NCBI GenBank assembly: GCA_006218045.1
Contig: VBWB01000008.1
Location: forward strand, 124,001 to 188,000
Length of the DNA stretch: 64,000 bases
Direction of reading: 5' to 3'
Origin: Stygiobacter sp.
GTDB taxonomy: Bacteria > Pseudomonadota > Alphaproteobacteria > Rhodospirillales > Magnetospirillaceae
In this document: piece after piece, positions 41,915-57,496 of the stretch
Layout of the letters: every line of letters starts with the position of its first letter
Position numbering within the stretch: position 1 is the first letter of the stretch
Translations under genes and position numbers: made by a program
The notes under the pieces: generated by a model
The model's input: only the letters and a program-made list of their open reading frames with translations
Databases searched by the model: none
What the model was told of the DNA's origin: nothing

Positions 41915-42391
41915 ATGAGCTCGGCACCGAAACTTGAACGCTTCAGCACCGACGGTGTCACCGTTCTGGTGATCGAGGACGACGAAACCACCCGATCCCT
42001 GTTGGTGCGCATGCTGAAGACCATGGGCGCCGCCCAGGTCTATGAAGCCAGTCATGGCGGCGACGGTCTGCGTCTGGCCTGGGAGATGAAGCCGACCATC
42101 GCCGTCTGCGACATCGACATGGCGCCGGTGGATGGTCTGTCGTTCCTGGGGGGGGTCAGGGCAGCGCTGGAACCCAAGGTGTCGGCCCTGCCGGTGGTGA
42201 TGTTCACCGCCACCAAGGACAGCGCCGCCATGGAGAAAGTGAAGGCACTGGGGGTTCAGGGCTATCTGTTGAAGCCGTTCAACCCCAAGGGCTTCGCCAC
42301 CTATATGTGCGACATCGTCGCCAAGCACCACAAAACCGACTGGGGCGGCATGGGGACGCCGCCGGCGGCGGAAGAAAAAGAAAAAACCTAA
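41915..42391 (+). CDS. CheY-like response regulator (single receiver domain)
   Basis: 158 residues. VTVLVIEDDETTRSLL gives the acidic pair, VCDIDMAPVDGLSFL carries the phospho-acceptor Asp (D66), VVMFTATKD the conserved Thr, and GYLLKPF the conserved Lys. There is no output domain; a charged tail (AAEEKEKT) ends the protein. The extra residue between DIDM and P relative to the usual DxxMP is a small oddity. Its stop codon overlaps that of the convergent hemerythrin gene. Cognate kinase not identifiable; the large kinase at 52850 is 10 kb away. Confidence 0.9.
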   Translation: MSSAPKLERFSTDGVTVLVIEDDETTRSLLVRMLKTMGAAQVYEASHGGDGLRLAWEMKPTIAVCDIDMAPVDGLSFLGGVRAALEPKVSALPVVMFTATKDSAAMEKVKALGVQGYLLKPFNPKGFATYMCDIVAKHHKTDWGGMGTPPAAEEKEKT

Positions 42392-51672: not shown

Positions 51673-51677
51673 TCCTG

Positions 51678-52772
51678 ATGTCGGGAAACGGTTTCGGCCA
51701 TACCTTCCGCTTCACCACCTTCGGCGAGTCGCATGGCCCCGCCATCGGCTGCGTCATCGACGGCGTGCCGCCGTTGCTGCCGCTGTCGGAGGCGGATATC
51801 CAGCCCTGGCTGGATCAACGGAAGCCCGGCCAGAACCGTTTCACCACCCAACGGCAAGAGGCGGACCAAGTCCGCATCCTGTCCGGGGTGTTCGATGGCG
51901 TCACCACCGGCACCTCCATCGGCCTCATGATCGAAAACACCGATCAGCGGTCCAAGGATTACGGCGACATCAAGGACACCTATCGTCCCGGCCACGCCGA
52001 TTGGGTCTACGAGCAGAAATACGGCATCCGCGATTATCGCGGCGGCGGACGCTCGAGCGCGCGGGAAACCGCCATGCGGGTGGCCGCCGGCGCGGTGGCG
52101 CGGGTGATCCTGGCGGCCCTGGCCCCGGGCATCGTCATCCGTGGCGCCATGGTGCAGATGGGGCCGCATGCCATCGACCCCGGGCGCTGGGATTGGGACC
52201 AGCGTCAGGCCAATCCGTTCTGGTGCCCCGATGCCGAGACCGTGCCGGTGTGGGAAAGCTTCCTCGACGGCGTGCGCAAGGCCGGATCAAGCACCGGCGG
52301 CGTGGTCGAAGTCACCGCCTCGGGCGTGCCTGCCGGGCTGGGGGCGCCGGTCTATGACAAGCTGGATGCCGATCTGGCCAAGGCGATGATGAGCATCAAC
52401 GCCGTCAAGGGCGTGGAAGTCGGCGCTGGCTTCCTGGCGGCATCGCTGTCGGGCGAGGACAACGCCGATGAAATGCGCATGGGGCCGGATGGCCGCGTGC
52501 GGTTTCTGTCCAACAATGCCGGCGGTATTCTGGGCGGCCTGTCCACCGGCCAGGACGTGGTGCTGCGTCTGGCGGTCAAGCCGACCAGTTCGATCCTGAT
52601 CCCGAAGAAGAGCGTCGACCGCCACGGCAACGATATCGAGGTCATCACCAAGGGCCGCCACGACCCCTGCGTCGCCATCCGCGCCGTGCCGGTGGCCGAG
52701 GCGATGATGGCGGTGACCCTGGCCGACCACCTGTTGCGCCACCGGGCGCAATGCGGTCTTTCCTTGACCTGA
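51678..52772 (+). CDS. aroC: Chorismate synthase
   Basis: 364 residues from the ATG at 51678. Signatures [60 protein letters not shown] and [20 protein letters not shown] are all intact. Converts EPSP to chorismate with reduced FMN, the last step of the shikimate pathway. Normal length for the family. Follows fabI directly, as in many alphaproteobacteria; the large histidine kinase gene begins 77 bases later in the same direction. Confidence 0.98.
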
Positions 52773-52849
52773 GGTTTGGCCCAAAGGATCATGCTGATCC
52801 CTTGGTCCATTCACAGGTCGTCGTGCCCCCCCCGACAGCGCCCGCCTTC

Positions 52850-55800
52850 ATGATCGTTGTGCGGCGTCTGCTGCGGCCGGTGCCGCTGGCCGCCCTGGCG
52901 CTGGCGCTGTGTCTGTGCGGGTTGCTGGCGCTGCATCTGTGGCGCAGTCATGTCAAGGCCGAGGCCGATGCCCGCCTGATCACCAGCACCTTGGGTCAAG
53001 CCATCGAACAGCATGTGGCCGGCCAGATGCGCGGTATCGCCACGCTGTTGGACGAAGTCGCCGCCATGGTCACCGAGCAGGGCCAGGGGCCTCCCGCTCT
53101 GGCCGGGAATCTGGGCGAACGGCTGTTGGTGTTTCCCGAAATCACCGGTCTGGTGTTGATGCGCGGCAATGGCGATTGGGTCGATTTGGGCAGTGACGAG
53201 CATCTGGCCCCCTCACAGGCGGCTTGGCTGCACGACCGTCTGCCCGGCGGCGCCGGTTTGGTCATCGGCCCGCCCCATGTCCAGGCCGGCGATGGACATC
53301 GGGTGCAGGTGGTGGCGTGGCTGTTCCCGCATGAAGATGGGACCGCCGCCATCGCCACCAAGCTGGACGTGAACGGTCTGTCGGCCTTTTTGCAGACGGT
53401 GCGGGTGCCGGAAACGGCGATGCTGGCGGTTATCCACCGCTCCTCGGCCAAGGTGGTGGCTGCGGTGCCGGAACCCGATGGCGGCTTCGCCCGGGATTTC
53501 CCCCGGCCCGACGCGGCCATCGGCACGGTGTTGCCGGTGGAGGGCCTGGACCTGGATGTCTGGGTGATGGCCGACCAGGGCAGCGCCTTTGCCCTGTGGC
53601 AGGGCAATGCCGTTTTAGGCGGCCTGTTGCTGGTTGTGCTGTGCGCGGCCATCCTGCTGTGGGCGCGGCGCGGCGATGCCGCTTGGTGTCATCTGACCCG
53701 GGCCCGCGATGGCCTGGAAAATCTGGTGATCAGTCGCGGCGAGGAATTGCGCCGGGCCCGCGCTTTGCTGGAACAAAAGGTCCGTCAGGTCAGCGCCGCC
53801 AATCGCGAAATGCAGCGCCTCTCCATGGTCACCGCCCACCATCTGCAAGAGCCGTTGCGACCGTTGGTCAGCTATAGCCAGATTCTGTTGCGTCGATTGC
53901 CGGCGGATTGGCACGACGCCCGCGCGCGGCTGGAGCGGCTGATCCAGGGCGGCAAGGATATGAAAATCCTGCTGCGCGGCTTTCAGCAACGGGTGGCCGC
54001 CTTGGGCATCGACGCGCCGATGGCGACGGTCGAATTACGGCAAGTGGTGCAGCGGGCCATGGTCGATGCCGATATCGCAATCCCCATCCGCCTGGGGACA
54101 TTGCCGGCCCTGGATGTGGCCGGCGACGGCATTCCCGAGGTTCTGGTCCAGGTGCTCAGAACCCTGGCGAGCTGGGGGGCGGCGACCATCGACGTCGAGG
54201 CCGAGTTGCAAGGCCAGGACTGGCTCTTGCGCATCTCGGGCGGCGGCGGTGAAACGGCGGTGGCGGTGCGGATATGTCAATCCCTGGCCGGTCTCAATGG
54301 GTTGGAGCTGTCCTATGGCGAGGGCTGCTTTATCCTGGCCTTGCCATCATCGGACCCGTCGGTGGTCGATGCGCCGGCAGCGGCGGCGGCGCCCTTGCCC
54401 CGGCAGTTCACCGCCCGGATCCAGGCCTTGGCTTTGATCGCCGCGGTGCTGGTGGCCATGGGCTGGCAGATGCTGCGCGAACGCGACAGCGCCATCCATG
54501 CCGCCCAGGTGCTGACCCTGGCGGTGGCCAATTCCATCGATCAGCAAATCTCGGGGTCGTTGCGCGGCATCGACACGGTTCTGGCCGAGGCCGCCGCCAT
54601 GATCACCCGGGGCGAATATCTCAACCGCACCTTTTCGGTGCGCATGGAAGGCATATTGCGGGCCTACCCGGAAATCCGCCATATCAGTATGGCCGATGCC
54701 TCGGGCCGGATGTCGACGGCGATGTGGCCGCCGCGTCTGGTGCCGGGGGGGGCTATCGACGTCAGCGACCGCACCTATTTCCAGGCGGCCCGGGCCAATG
54801 CGCGGGAGCGGTCGCAGATGGTGGTGGGCGACCCGGTGCTGGGGCGCATCAACAGTGAACGCTCGTTGCACGTGGCCCGTCCCCTGGTGGACGACAAGGG
54901 TGATTTCGCCGGCATCGTCTATGCCAGCCTCGATCCCGATGTCTATGCCCGTTTCCTTGACCGGGTGCTGCTGGACCGCGACGGCGGCACCGCGCTGATC
55001 GGCGCCAATGGGCGGATGATCGCCCGCGCCCCGGCCCATGTGGAAAAGTTCGGCATCGACATTTCCAGCAGCGATCTGTTCACCCGGTGGCTGCCGCAGG
55101 CGCCCATGGGCACCGCCCACCTGATTTCCAAGGCCGACGGCAACGACAAGTACCTGGCCTATCGTCTGCTGTCGCCCTATCCGCTGGTGGTGACCTCGGC
55201 CGTGTCGCGCAATCGGGCCTTGGCCCTGTGGCAGCGTGGTTTGACCGGGGCGGTGATGGTCGGGACGTTGCTGTCGGTGACGCTGTTCCTGCTGGCCTGG
55301 ACGGCGGATCGCGGCATGGCCCGCATTCGCCGTCGTCAGGGCGAATTGGCGGTCGAGGTGGCGCGCCGGACCCAGGGATTGGAAGCGGCGCGGGCGCTGT
55401 CGGACAGTCGCGCCGCCAGTCTGGACCGCTTGAACGGACAGTTGCGCGACCTTTTGGGGGTGGTCACCCGCGACCTGCAAGCGCCGCTGGCCGTCTTGCA
55501 GGACGAGGCCGGGCGGTTGGCCGCTGACCTTGTCGCCGCCGACAGCCGGGAGAAGCCGGAAGAGCTGGATTATGTTCTGGCCGCCATTGCCCGTTTGGCG
55601 GCATTGCTGCGCGACTTCCAGCGTTTCGTCTCCATCACCAGCATGTCGGCCCAGCCACAAAAGGTCGATCTCGGTGGGCTGGTGCGGTTGGCGGTCGACG
55701 ACATGGAACGGCGCTTCGGCCCGGCGGTGTTGCTGGTGGAGGCGGAAAACTTGCCGACCATTCGTGTCGATGGCGGCATGATGCTGGAATTGCTGGCGCA

Positions 55801-56101
55801 GATTTTCACCAACGCCGTCACCTATGGGCGGCGGTCGCAGGCGGTGTCGGTGCGGATCGGTGCCCAGGTCGATGTTGGGGGCTGGCGGTTGGACATTATC
55901 GATGACGGACCGGGCTTTCCGCCCGAACAGCTCAGCCACGATCCCCAGATGTTCGATACCGGTATCGGGCAATCGGCGGATTCCACCGGCATCGGTCTGG
56001 CCATCTGCCGGGTCATCGCCCAGGCCCATGGCGGCGAATTGTGGTTGAGCAACGGCGCTCAAGGCGGCGCCGTGATCAGTATCAGCCTGCCGGAGAATTA
56101 A
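52850..56101 (+). CDS. Tandem-module sensor histidine kinase, two sensor-kinase units in one chain
   Basis: 1083 residues from ATG 52850 (a GTG at 52823 is possible). Module 1: membrane segment 11-30, periplasmic sensor about 35-250, membrane segment 254-271, a DHp helix with H330 in AHHLQEPLRP, then a remnant of the ATPase domain (about 420-500) with no N-box, no DxGxG and no GxGxG. Module 2: membrane segment 525-541, dCACHE-like sensor about 545-795 (DRTYFQAARAN, VYASLDPDVYARFLD), membrane segment 798-818, a DHp helix where the His position is R874 (TRDLQAPL), then a complete ATPase domain: FTNAVTYG (N988), DDGPGF (D1019), STGIGLAI. Thus the phospho-acceptor His survives only in half 1 and ATP binding only in half 2. 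An LLxx-type partner regulator is not adjacent. Confidence 0.8.
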   Translation: MIVVRRLLRPVPLAALALALCLCGLLALHLWRSHVKAEADARLITSTLGQAIEQHVAGQMRGIATLLDEVAAMVTEQGQGPPALAGNLGERLLVFPEITGLVLMRGNGDWVDLGSDEHLAPSQAAWLHDRLPGGAGLVIGPPHVQAGDGHRVQVVAWLFPHEDGTAAIATKLDVNGLSAFLQTVRVPETAMLAVIHRSSAKVVAAVPEPDGGFARDFPRPDAAIGTVLPVEGLDLDVWVMADQGSAFALWQGNAVLGGLLLVVLCAAILLWARRGDAAWCHLTRARDGLENLVISRGEELRRARALLEQKVRQVSAANREMQRLSMVTAHHLQEPLRPLVSYSQILLRRLPADWHDARARLERLIQGGKDMKILLRGFQQRVAALGIDAPMATVELRQVVQRAMVDADIAIPIRLGTLPALDVAGDGIPEVLVQVLRTLASWGAATIDVEAELQGQDWLLRISGGGGETAVAVRICQSLAGLNGLELSYGEGCFILALPSSDPSVVDAPAAAAAPLPRQFTARIQALALIAAVLVAMGWQMLRERDSAIHAAQVLTLAVANSIDQQISGSLRGIDTVLAEAAAMITRGEYLNRTFSVRMEGILRAYPEIRHISMADASGRMSTAMWPPRLVPGGAIDVSDRTYFQAARANARERSQMVVGDPVLGRINSERSLHVARPLVDDKGDFAGIVYASLDPDVYARFLDRVLLDRDGGTALIGANGRMIARAPAHVEKFGIDISSSDLFTRWLPQAPMGTAHLISKADGNDKYLAYRLLSPYPLVVTSAVSRNRALALWQRGLTGAVMVGTLLSVTLFLLAWTADRGMARIRRRQGELAVEVARRTQGLEAARALSDSRAASLDRLNGQLRDLLGVVTRDLQAPLAVLQDEAGRLAADLVAADSREKPEELDYVLAAIARLAALLRDFQRFVSITSMSAQPQKVDLGGLVRLAVDDMERRFGPAVLLVEAENLPTIRVDGGMMLELLAQIFTNAVTYGRRSQAVSVRIGAQVDVGGWRLDIIDDGPGFPPEQLSHDPQMFDTGIGQSADSTGIGLAICRVIAQAHGGELWLSNGAQGGAVISISLPEN

Positions 56102-56680: not shown

Positions 56681-57496
56681 ATGCCGGTTGATCAGATCAA
56701 CCTGACCGCTTCGGCGCGGGACGTTTTGGTGACGCAACAAAGTCTGACCGCCAGCGCGGCGCAGCGCTCGCAAAATCTGTCCACGGGCCGGAAAGTCAGC
56801 CGGGTCACCGATGACGCTGTCGCCTTTGCCGCGGCCCGGGCCTTGACAGAACGGGCGAGCGACCTGTCGGCGGTCAAGGATTCGGTGGGGCAAGGCGTTT
56901 CCACCATCAATGCCGCCCTGGCCGGGGCCGAAGGGGTGAATTCCCTGCTCGACCAGATGAAGGGCGTCGCCAGCGCCGCCATCGCCAGTGGCGATTCCAC
57001 CGAGCGGAATGCGCTGGCCACCCAGTACAATCAATTGCGTGGGCAGGTGGATTCCCTGGCCGCCGATGCCGGTTATAACGGCGTCAACCTGCTGTCGGCC
57101 TCCTCCTCGGCCCTGACCGTGGCGTTTGGTAGTCAGGCCGGCGACAGCCTGACCGTCAGTGGCCGCAACGTCAGTGCGACCGGTCTGGGGGTGGCGGCGG
57201 TGGCCGCCGACGGCAGCGATTTTTCCGCCAGTACCCTGGCCCAGTTGGACAATGCCGCCGCCACCGTCAATTCCGTCCAATCCAGTTTGGGCAGCAACCT
57301 GACGGCGCTGGGCATCCGCGGCGAGGCGGCGGCCAGCCAAGCGGTCATCGCCCAAGACGGCGCCGCCAAGCTGACCGAGGCCGACCTGAACGAGGAAGCG
57401 GCCCTGCTGGTGGCGACCCGAACCCGCCAGCAACTGGCCCGCGCCGCCCAAGGGGTGTCGCAGCGGGCGCAGGAATCGCTGCTGACCCTGTTCTGA
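56681..57496 (+). CDS. Second flagellin (short)
   Basis: 271 residues from ATG 56681. N-terminal DQINLTASARDVLVTQQSLT, then RSQNLSTGRKVSRVTDDAVA, and the C-terminal LLVATRTRQQLARAA and QESLLTLF are flagellin D0/D1 helices. The central part is very short and the N-terminal helix lacks the usual 'NSIxSNLLSLN' pattern of the copy at 19500. Both ends differ enough to suggest a minor or specialised filament subunit. Its stop codon overlaps the start of a FlaF gene. Confidence 0.9.
   Translation: MPVDQINLTASARDVLVTQQSLTASAAQRSQNLSTGRKVSRVTDDAVAFAAARALTERASDLSAVKDSVGQGVSTINAALAGAEGVNSLLDQMKGVASAAIASGDSTERNALATQYNQLRGQVDSLAADAGYNGVNLLSASSSALTVAFGSQAGDSLTVSGRNVSATGLGVAAVAADGSDFSASTLAQLDNAAATVNSVQSSLGSNLTALGIRGEAAASQAVIAQDGAAKLTEADLNEEAALLVATRTRQQLARAAQGVSQRAQESLLTLF

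Follow-up and report, generated by a model that had tools for sequence, protein, structure and literature searches.

Several known systems are in part similar to a one-chain tandem histidine kinase from Stygiobacter sp., encoded at positions 52,850 to 56,101 of a stretch of 64,000 nucleotides (contig VBWB01000008.1, positions 124,001 to 188,000 of the forward strand; hereafter the window). Spo0B and ChpT are stand-alone soluble histidine phosphotransferases with no sensor or attached kinase, and the first half of the window protein (half 1) is similar to them in combining a His-bearing DHp domain with an ATPase-like domain, which in Spo0B and ChpT does not bind ATP. DivL is a pseudo-histidine kinase with a non-His acceptor position that regulates another kinase; the second half (half 2) is like it at that position, but has its His-bearing partner in the same chain. 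Mammalian membrane adenylyl cyclases are tandem membrane duplications with complementary active-site residues in their two catalytic halves and, being a different enzyme, serve as an analogy only. In the mycobacterial pair Rv0600c and Rv0601c, the ATPase and the acceptor are placed on different partners. These two kinases work with TcrA (PMC9274095) and are products of two genes, whereas the window protein is a one-chain tandem.

In the split kinase CheA3/CheA4 of Rhodobacter sphaeroides, neither protein autophosphorylates alone, and kinase activity and phospho-acceptor lie on different modules as they do here (PMC3591291). However, CheA3 and CheA4 are two CheA-type proteins, whereas the window protein has HisKA-type modules in one chain, with halves homologous end to end; up to 1.7% of kinases have been considered potentially split and bifunctional (PMC3591291). 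TodS-type proteins share with ours the presence of two DHp-ATPase modules in one chain (PMC4321377, PMC3018481). TodS is described as having no membrane spans, a receiver between the modules, a His-Asp-His-Asp relay and a second module that is also autokinase-active (PMC4321377), whereas the window protein has no receiver between its transmitters, does not have the acceptor His in both and shows reciprocal loss. A census of kinases counted 2 with more than one transmitter among 15704 non-hybrid kinases, and 51 with two among 4650 hybrids (PMC3018481), which fits the claim of a preliminary description of this DNA that a split of function within one polypeptide is unusual; a half as degenerate as half 1 would probably escape such a transmitter census. 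Split kinases made of two proteins are already known, as are tandems that keep both His; what appears to be new here is reciprocal decay in one receiver-free chain, for which no precedent was found among the literature matches listed, in which few subscription journals were covered.

Reciprocal loss in two homologous halves

Comparison of sequences establishes that the two halves are homologous, that each has lost what the other keeps, that this reciprocal loss is conserved among orthologues, and that the ratio of nonsynonymous to synonymous substitution rates (dN/dS) lies below 1. The parts of the gene, all on the forward (+) strand and in window coordinates, are the following, where CA1 and CA2 denote the ATPase domains of half 1 and half 2.

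52850..56101, +, tandem histidine kinase gene: 1083 amino acids plus stop, stop-free translation
52880..53599, +, half 1, first presumed membrane helix and shortened dCache-type sensor (about residues 11-250): aligned by profile with the sensor of half 2, predicted secondary structure, approximate limits
53600..54001, +, half 1, second presumed membrane helix, signalling helix and DHp1 (about residues 251-384): alignment and predicted models, approximate limits
53837..53839, +, codon of His330, the half-1 phospho-acceptor position in the H-box HHLQEPLR: His in 7/7 tandems
54014..54385, +, CA1, the degenerate ATPase domain of half 1 (about residues 389-512): lacks the N-box Asn and the G1 Asp as well as the ATP lid and the glycines of G2
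54407..55249, +, half 2, third presumed membrane helix and dCache_1 sensor (about residues 520-800): Pfam dCache_1 and dCache_1_like
55250..55654, +, half 2, fourth presumed membrane helix, signalling helix and DHp2 (about residues 801-935): HisKA below cut-off, alignment and predicted secondary structure
55469..55471, +, codon of Arg874, the half-2 phospho-acceptor position: R,R,R,T,T,T,A across 7 tandems
55655..56098, +, half 2, intact ATPase domain CA2 (N988, DDGPG 1018-1022, TGIGL 1046-1050): Pfam HATPase_c 980-1082, E 6.6e-18

Profiles of the two halves, built from six orthologues a side, aligned over 461 columns with 25% identity (E 1.3e-26) and were collinear across sensor, signalling helix, DHp and ATPase, which supports the internal duplication suggested in the preliminary description. 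In this alignment, Arg874 (within TRDLQAPL) stands opposite His330 (within AHHLQEPL), the N-box Asn988 of half 2 opposite Thr438, the G1 Asp1018 opposite Gly464, and the G2 motif TGIGL opposite TAVAV, in which the G2 glycines are gone; the F-box and ATP lid are also missing from half 1, which is about 23 columns shorter there than half 2. The acceptor His occurs in half 1 only and the catalytic motifs in half 2 only, never both in one module. As in a split kinase, acceptor and catalytic domain are on separate modules, each of them incomplete, but both lie in one frame of 1083 amino acids and not on two proteins, and the relatives are likewise single frames. The alignment confirmed the earlier statement that half 1 keeps H330 while its ATPase domain lacks the N-box, G1 and G2, and, together with Pfam, bore out an intact ATPase domain in half 2 with Arg874 at the His position. 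The two sensors had been called different; they have indeed diverged, sensor 1 being the shorter and more diverged, but they are not unrelated, both aligning to one dCache-type sensor.

All Pfam matches fell in half 2, namely HATPase_c (residues 980-1082), dCache_1 (553-755, E 3.5e-15) and dCache_1_like (697-784), with HisKA at residues 865-930 (E 0.01) below the Pfam cut-off. Because half 1 alone (residues 1-537) matched no Pfam family at E<=1, its identity as a kinase rests on the profile alignment and the predicted fold; its dCache sensor is seen by profile alignment only, that of half 2 by Pfam. There was no Response_reg match to Pfam in the kinase protein and none at its position in the genome scan. 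An annotation based on domains would probably present the protein as one ordinary sensor kinase with a single module.

For DHp1-CA1 (226 amino acids), AlphaFold2 predicted two long DHp helices and a small lid-less ATPase-like sandwich; the mean predicted local distance difference test score (pLDDT) was 80.2 in the best model and 52-62 in the other four, and the predicted template modelling score (pTM) was 0.52. The best 50 of its 632 PDB matches at E<=10 were sensor kinases, with no Spo0B or ChpT, and those listed include kinase cores such as ZraS, CpxA and HK853 (E 1e-8 to 1e-6), at template modelling (TM) scores of only 0.33-0.44. In the full-length model, the order sensor, DHp and ATPase is seen twice, together with four long helices in which the membrane spans would lie, and its PDB matches include the histidine-kinase extracellular domain 3lif as well as kinase cores. 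A membrane topology with four spans is presumed.

Of the 13 genomes of the genus, 7 yielded tandems, the window's own among them; six of the frames are complete, and that of G012 is cut by a contig end. L009 is an 86% orthologue of the window protein. A scan of named genomes, seeded with two peptide patterns, gave matches in M. sulfuroxidans J10, Magnetospirillum sp. 64-120, Magnetospirillum sp. W65, M. aberrantis SpK and Rhodospirillaceae bacterium UBA6219. All seven tandems have His as the half-1 acceptor; at the half-2 position the residues are R,R,R,T,T,T,A, with His in 0/7, and the CA2 residues N988, D1018, G1020, G1022, G1047 and G1049 are identical in 7/7. Of the 25 columns compared around the H-box, 16 are invariant in half 1 and 4 in half 2, and none of the seven frames contains a stop. 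In M. aberrantis (L014/L042), the first unit consists of sensor and DHp only, and CA1 is gone, DHp1 running via a short linker straight into the membrane helix that follows; this protein nevertheless keeps CA2 and the His of half 1. The half-1 ATPase has been lost to two different extents, being degenerate in six tandems and absent as a domain in one, and the reciprocal pattern is more than chance, since it is common to all seven, with differing half-2 residues and these two extents of CA1 loss. Neither an orthologue with an intact half-1 ATPase nor one with His in half 2, both of which the preliminary description had regarded as contrary evidence, occurs among the seven. Its further proviso, another His acceptor in the half-2 DHp, was partly answered: no His is invariant in residues 816-960 (seven rows) and the window protein has none there, but M. 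aberrantis has two His slightly past its own Ala, a possible alternative acceptor in that protein.

Selection was estimated by the Nei-Gojobori method in four species pairs, which share species (three of the four lie among G008, G011 and G012), reach dS of about 1.07 and exclude G005 and M. aberrantis. In all six domains of every pair, dN/dS was below 1 (range 0.11-0.62; window-G007 0.11-0.28, G008-G011 0.14-0.29, G008-G012 0.16-0.31, G011-G012 0.25-0.62). The lowest value belonged to CA2 in three pairs and to sensor 2 in the remaining one, the highest to CA1, DHp2 or sensor 1 according to the pair, and CA1 gave 0.28-0.47 in the pairs compared.

Ancestry and genomic setting of the tandem

An order-wide search of 317 genomes gave 25 matches at E<=1e-85, which were the seven tandems plus 18 further matches whose open frames measure 569-733 amino acids; in an even sample of 385 genomes across the class, two genomes matched and the window's own was the only tandem (two candidates were scored per genome in both searches). 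His is kept in 28/28 distinct single-module relatives read (29 loci, of which 25 were aligned, L006, L136 and L032 were read apart, and L142, with the same length and motifs, was counted as a copy of L043). The nearest single kinases, L043 and L044, have the H-box HHLQEPLRPIVSYSQ, nearly identical to that of half 1, together with G1 and G2 motifs. A complete kinase is therefore the likely ancestor, given that the singles keep His and that these two combine an H-box of the half-1 type with G1 and G2. Strict motif patterns missed G1 in L003, L139 and L031, G2 in L028 and L029, and both in L006, so that a complete ATPase is claimed for L043, L044 and L015 only. In place of an acid after the phospho-acceptor His, the singles L043, L044, L028, L029, L015 and L032 have His or Gln (HHLQEP, HQLQEP); a non-acidic residue after His330 was considered as a sign of half-1 decay and rejected, since the nearest singles likewise carry His or Gln at this position.

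In a maximum-likelihood tree of sensor and DHp (38 rows; L031, which has His in the alignment, was left out), the 14 halves and five singles formed one clade (96/91), within which half 2 was one clade (100/99). Fusion of two unrelated kinases was rejected, as the halves align end to end and this clade unites all of them with the five singles. An assembly or frameshift artefact was likewise rejected, open frames with the same pattern being present in seven genomes.

The kinase frame starts 77 bases past the end of the upstream gene at 51675-52772, which we take to be aroC; an alternative start, an in-frame ATG at 52751 within the end of that gene, is possible. Other neighbours, recognised from their translations, are presumably fabI, a rhodanese gene, sppA and a flagellin-like gene. 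In the window and in L038-L040, the kinase gene lies between aroC and a gene for 179 amino acids beside the flagellin-like gene; L041 starts within the kinase and has the same downstream order. The kinase stop overlaps the convergent 179-amino-acid gene by four bases (56098-56101), and the flagellin-like gene, assigned by eye, lies near the kinase at 56681-57496, in the same order in L038-L041. The kinase region at this site corresponds to window 52773-56101, and in five of seven other congeners (G001, G003, G004, G006 and G009) aroC is followed by the 179-amino-acid gene with no kinase match between them; the G002 contig ends, and the flank in G010 yielded no 179-amino-acid gene. Because the site is empty in those five, the window locus looks like a lineage-specific gain or, less simply, a case of repeated loss. 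M. aberrantis, taken to be G004 of these five, has its tandem at another locus, flanked on both sides by further kinase frames of the same orientation (L042:4075-12741), where no receiver was noticed by eye among frames of 220 amino acids or more.

The window's own genome encodes a second one-frame tandem (L150:1130-4549, contig C46 at about 94629-98048; 1139 amino acids) with the order HisKA, HATPase, receiver, HisKA, HATPase. By eye, His is kept in both of its H-boxes, so tandem architecture alone does not bring reciprocal loss. Its second ATPase domain looks shortened, also by eye, near the lid and G2.

A proposed division of labour and its alternatives

We consider it probable that an ancestral dCache histidine kinase was duplicated inside its own reading frame and that the copies divided the catalytic work, with CA2 phosphorylating H330 within a chain or across a dimer. 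This is the simplest reading because the halves, incomplete alone, jointly hold one full and conserved set of motifs. DHp1 would contribute the only phosphorylatable His and CA2 the only ATP-binding catalytic domain; DHp1 and DHp2 would most likely pair as a four-helix bundle, either inside one chain, as a pseudo-heterodimer, or between two chains, and CA2 would act on H330 in trans, a geometry that is needed because its own DHp has no acceptor. DHp2 may serve as the dimerization scaffold, and CA1, with which M. aberrantis has dispensed, may have a structural or docking role. Phosphorylated H330 would pass its phosphate to an unlinked response regulator, and the two homologous, diverged sensors would both act on one active site. 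The pairing of DHp1 with DHp2, the phosphorylation of H330, the integration of two signals and the output are what we infer from this arrangement of domains.

Several observations weigh against this proposal. The residue after H330 is His and not the usual acid, which may bear on phosphorylation. The seven tandems may all inherit one loss and hence would not be seven independent cases, and confidence in the full-length model is modest (mean pLDDT 73.6, pTM 0.46). The nearest receiver domain on the contig lies about 10.5 kb upstream (window 41963-42289), and the genome receiver scan gave no assignable candidate for a partner response regulator. In the free tree, half 1 of the six orthologues sits on a long branch apart from half 1 of M. 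aberrantis; holding half 1 together costs 9.7 log units (approximately unbiased (AU) test, p 0.24), so that one origin of half 1 is not rejected, and holding all halves as one clade costs 12.7 log units (AU p 0.156). In a tree from DHp alone, half 1 of all seven tandems groups together with weak support (72/67, subject to a long-branch warning) and falls with the five single kinases, half 2 being apart. A single duplication for all tandems, M. aberrantis included, is allowed by these trees and not proven, given the separate placement of M. aberrantis half 1 and the separation of the halves in the DHp-only tree.

Of the other explanations, the one that we take most seriously, although we think it rather unlikely, is that half 1 is a phosphotransferase of the Spo0B/ChpT type fed by another kinase or response regulator, that half 2 is a regulatory pseudokinase like DivL, and that no phosphorylation passes between the halves. 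Half 1 has one defining trait of such phosphotransferases, an ATPase-like domain without ATP-binding motifs and lid, no receiver gene is linked, and CA1, predicted to be ATPase-like and lid-less, has the dN/dS expected for a docking domain. On the other hand, the catalytic residues of CA2 are kept in 7/7 tandems and would be unneeded in a pure pseudokinase, half 1 of M. aberrantis has no ATPase remnant, and Spo0B and ChpT are not among the best 50 of 632 structural matches of DHp1-CA1, although the TM-scores of these are low. A further step down in probability is a protein that works only in mixed complexes with other kinases of the cell, in the manner of RetS/GacS or DivL/CckA; the target of CA2 would then be the DHp of another protein, and H330 would receive its phosphate from the ATPase domain of another protein. 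The 97 HATPase_c matches in the genome, which include other ATPases, and the two kinase frames seen by eye beside the M. aberrantis tandem agree with it; but the neighbours in the four relatives compared (L038-L041) are the same non-kinase genes as in the window, and exactly complementary halves in one chain would then be a coincidence. That the protein is a relict or incipient pseudogene, its reciprocal losses being random decay, seems to us highly improbable. Half 1 of the six orthologues has its long branch, and 6 of the 13 genus genomes have no match spanning both halves at E<=1e-80; against this stand seven frames free of stops, the dN/dS values and the invariance of precisely the complementary catalytic residues.

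A bolder form of the proposed division of labour within one duplicated kinase is a covalent pseudo-heterodimer, in which one chain would by itself form the DHp bundle with one donor and one acceptor, allowing one trans-phosphorylation per molecule, gated by two diverged dCache sensors; we advance it tentatively, as somewhat less probable than its opposite. If true, this would be a natural, obligately asymmetric kinase, and one of a class hidden from domain-based annotation, half 1 matching no Pfam family. Whether a kinase dimer needs two active sites, and whether it signals asymmetrically, are questions for which mixed dimers are commonly engineered. In the present protein, a single donor and a single acceptor seem to be fixed within the same polypeptide, an arrangement kept in several species, and the halves would therefore be separately mutable without mixing of subunits. 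The protein could serve as a natural test of how two-part sensors work. Since Pfam is blind to half 1, our results also suggest that kinases with decayed modules may escape domain-based counts.

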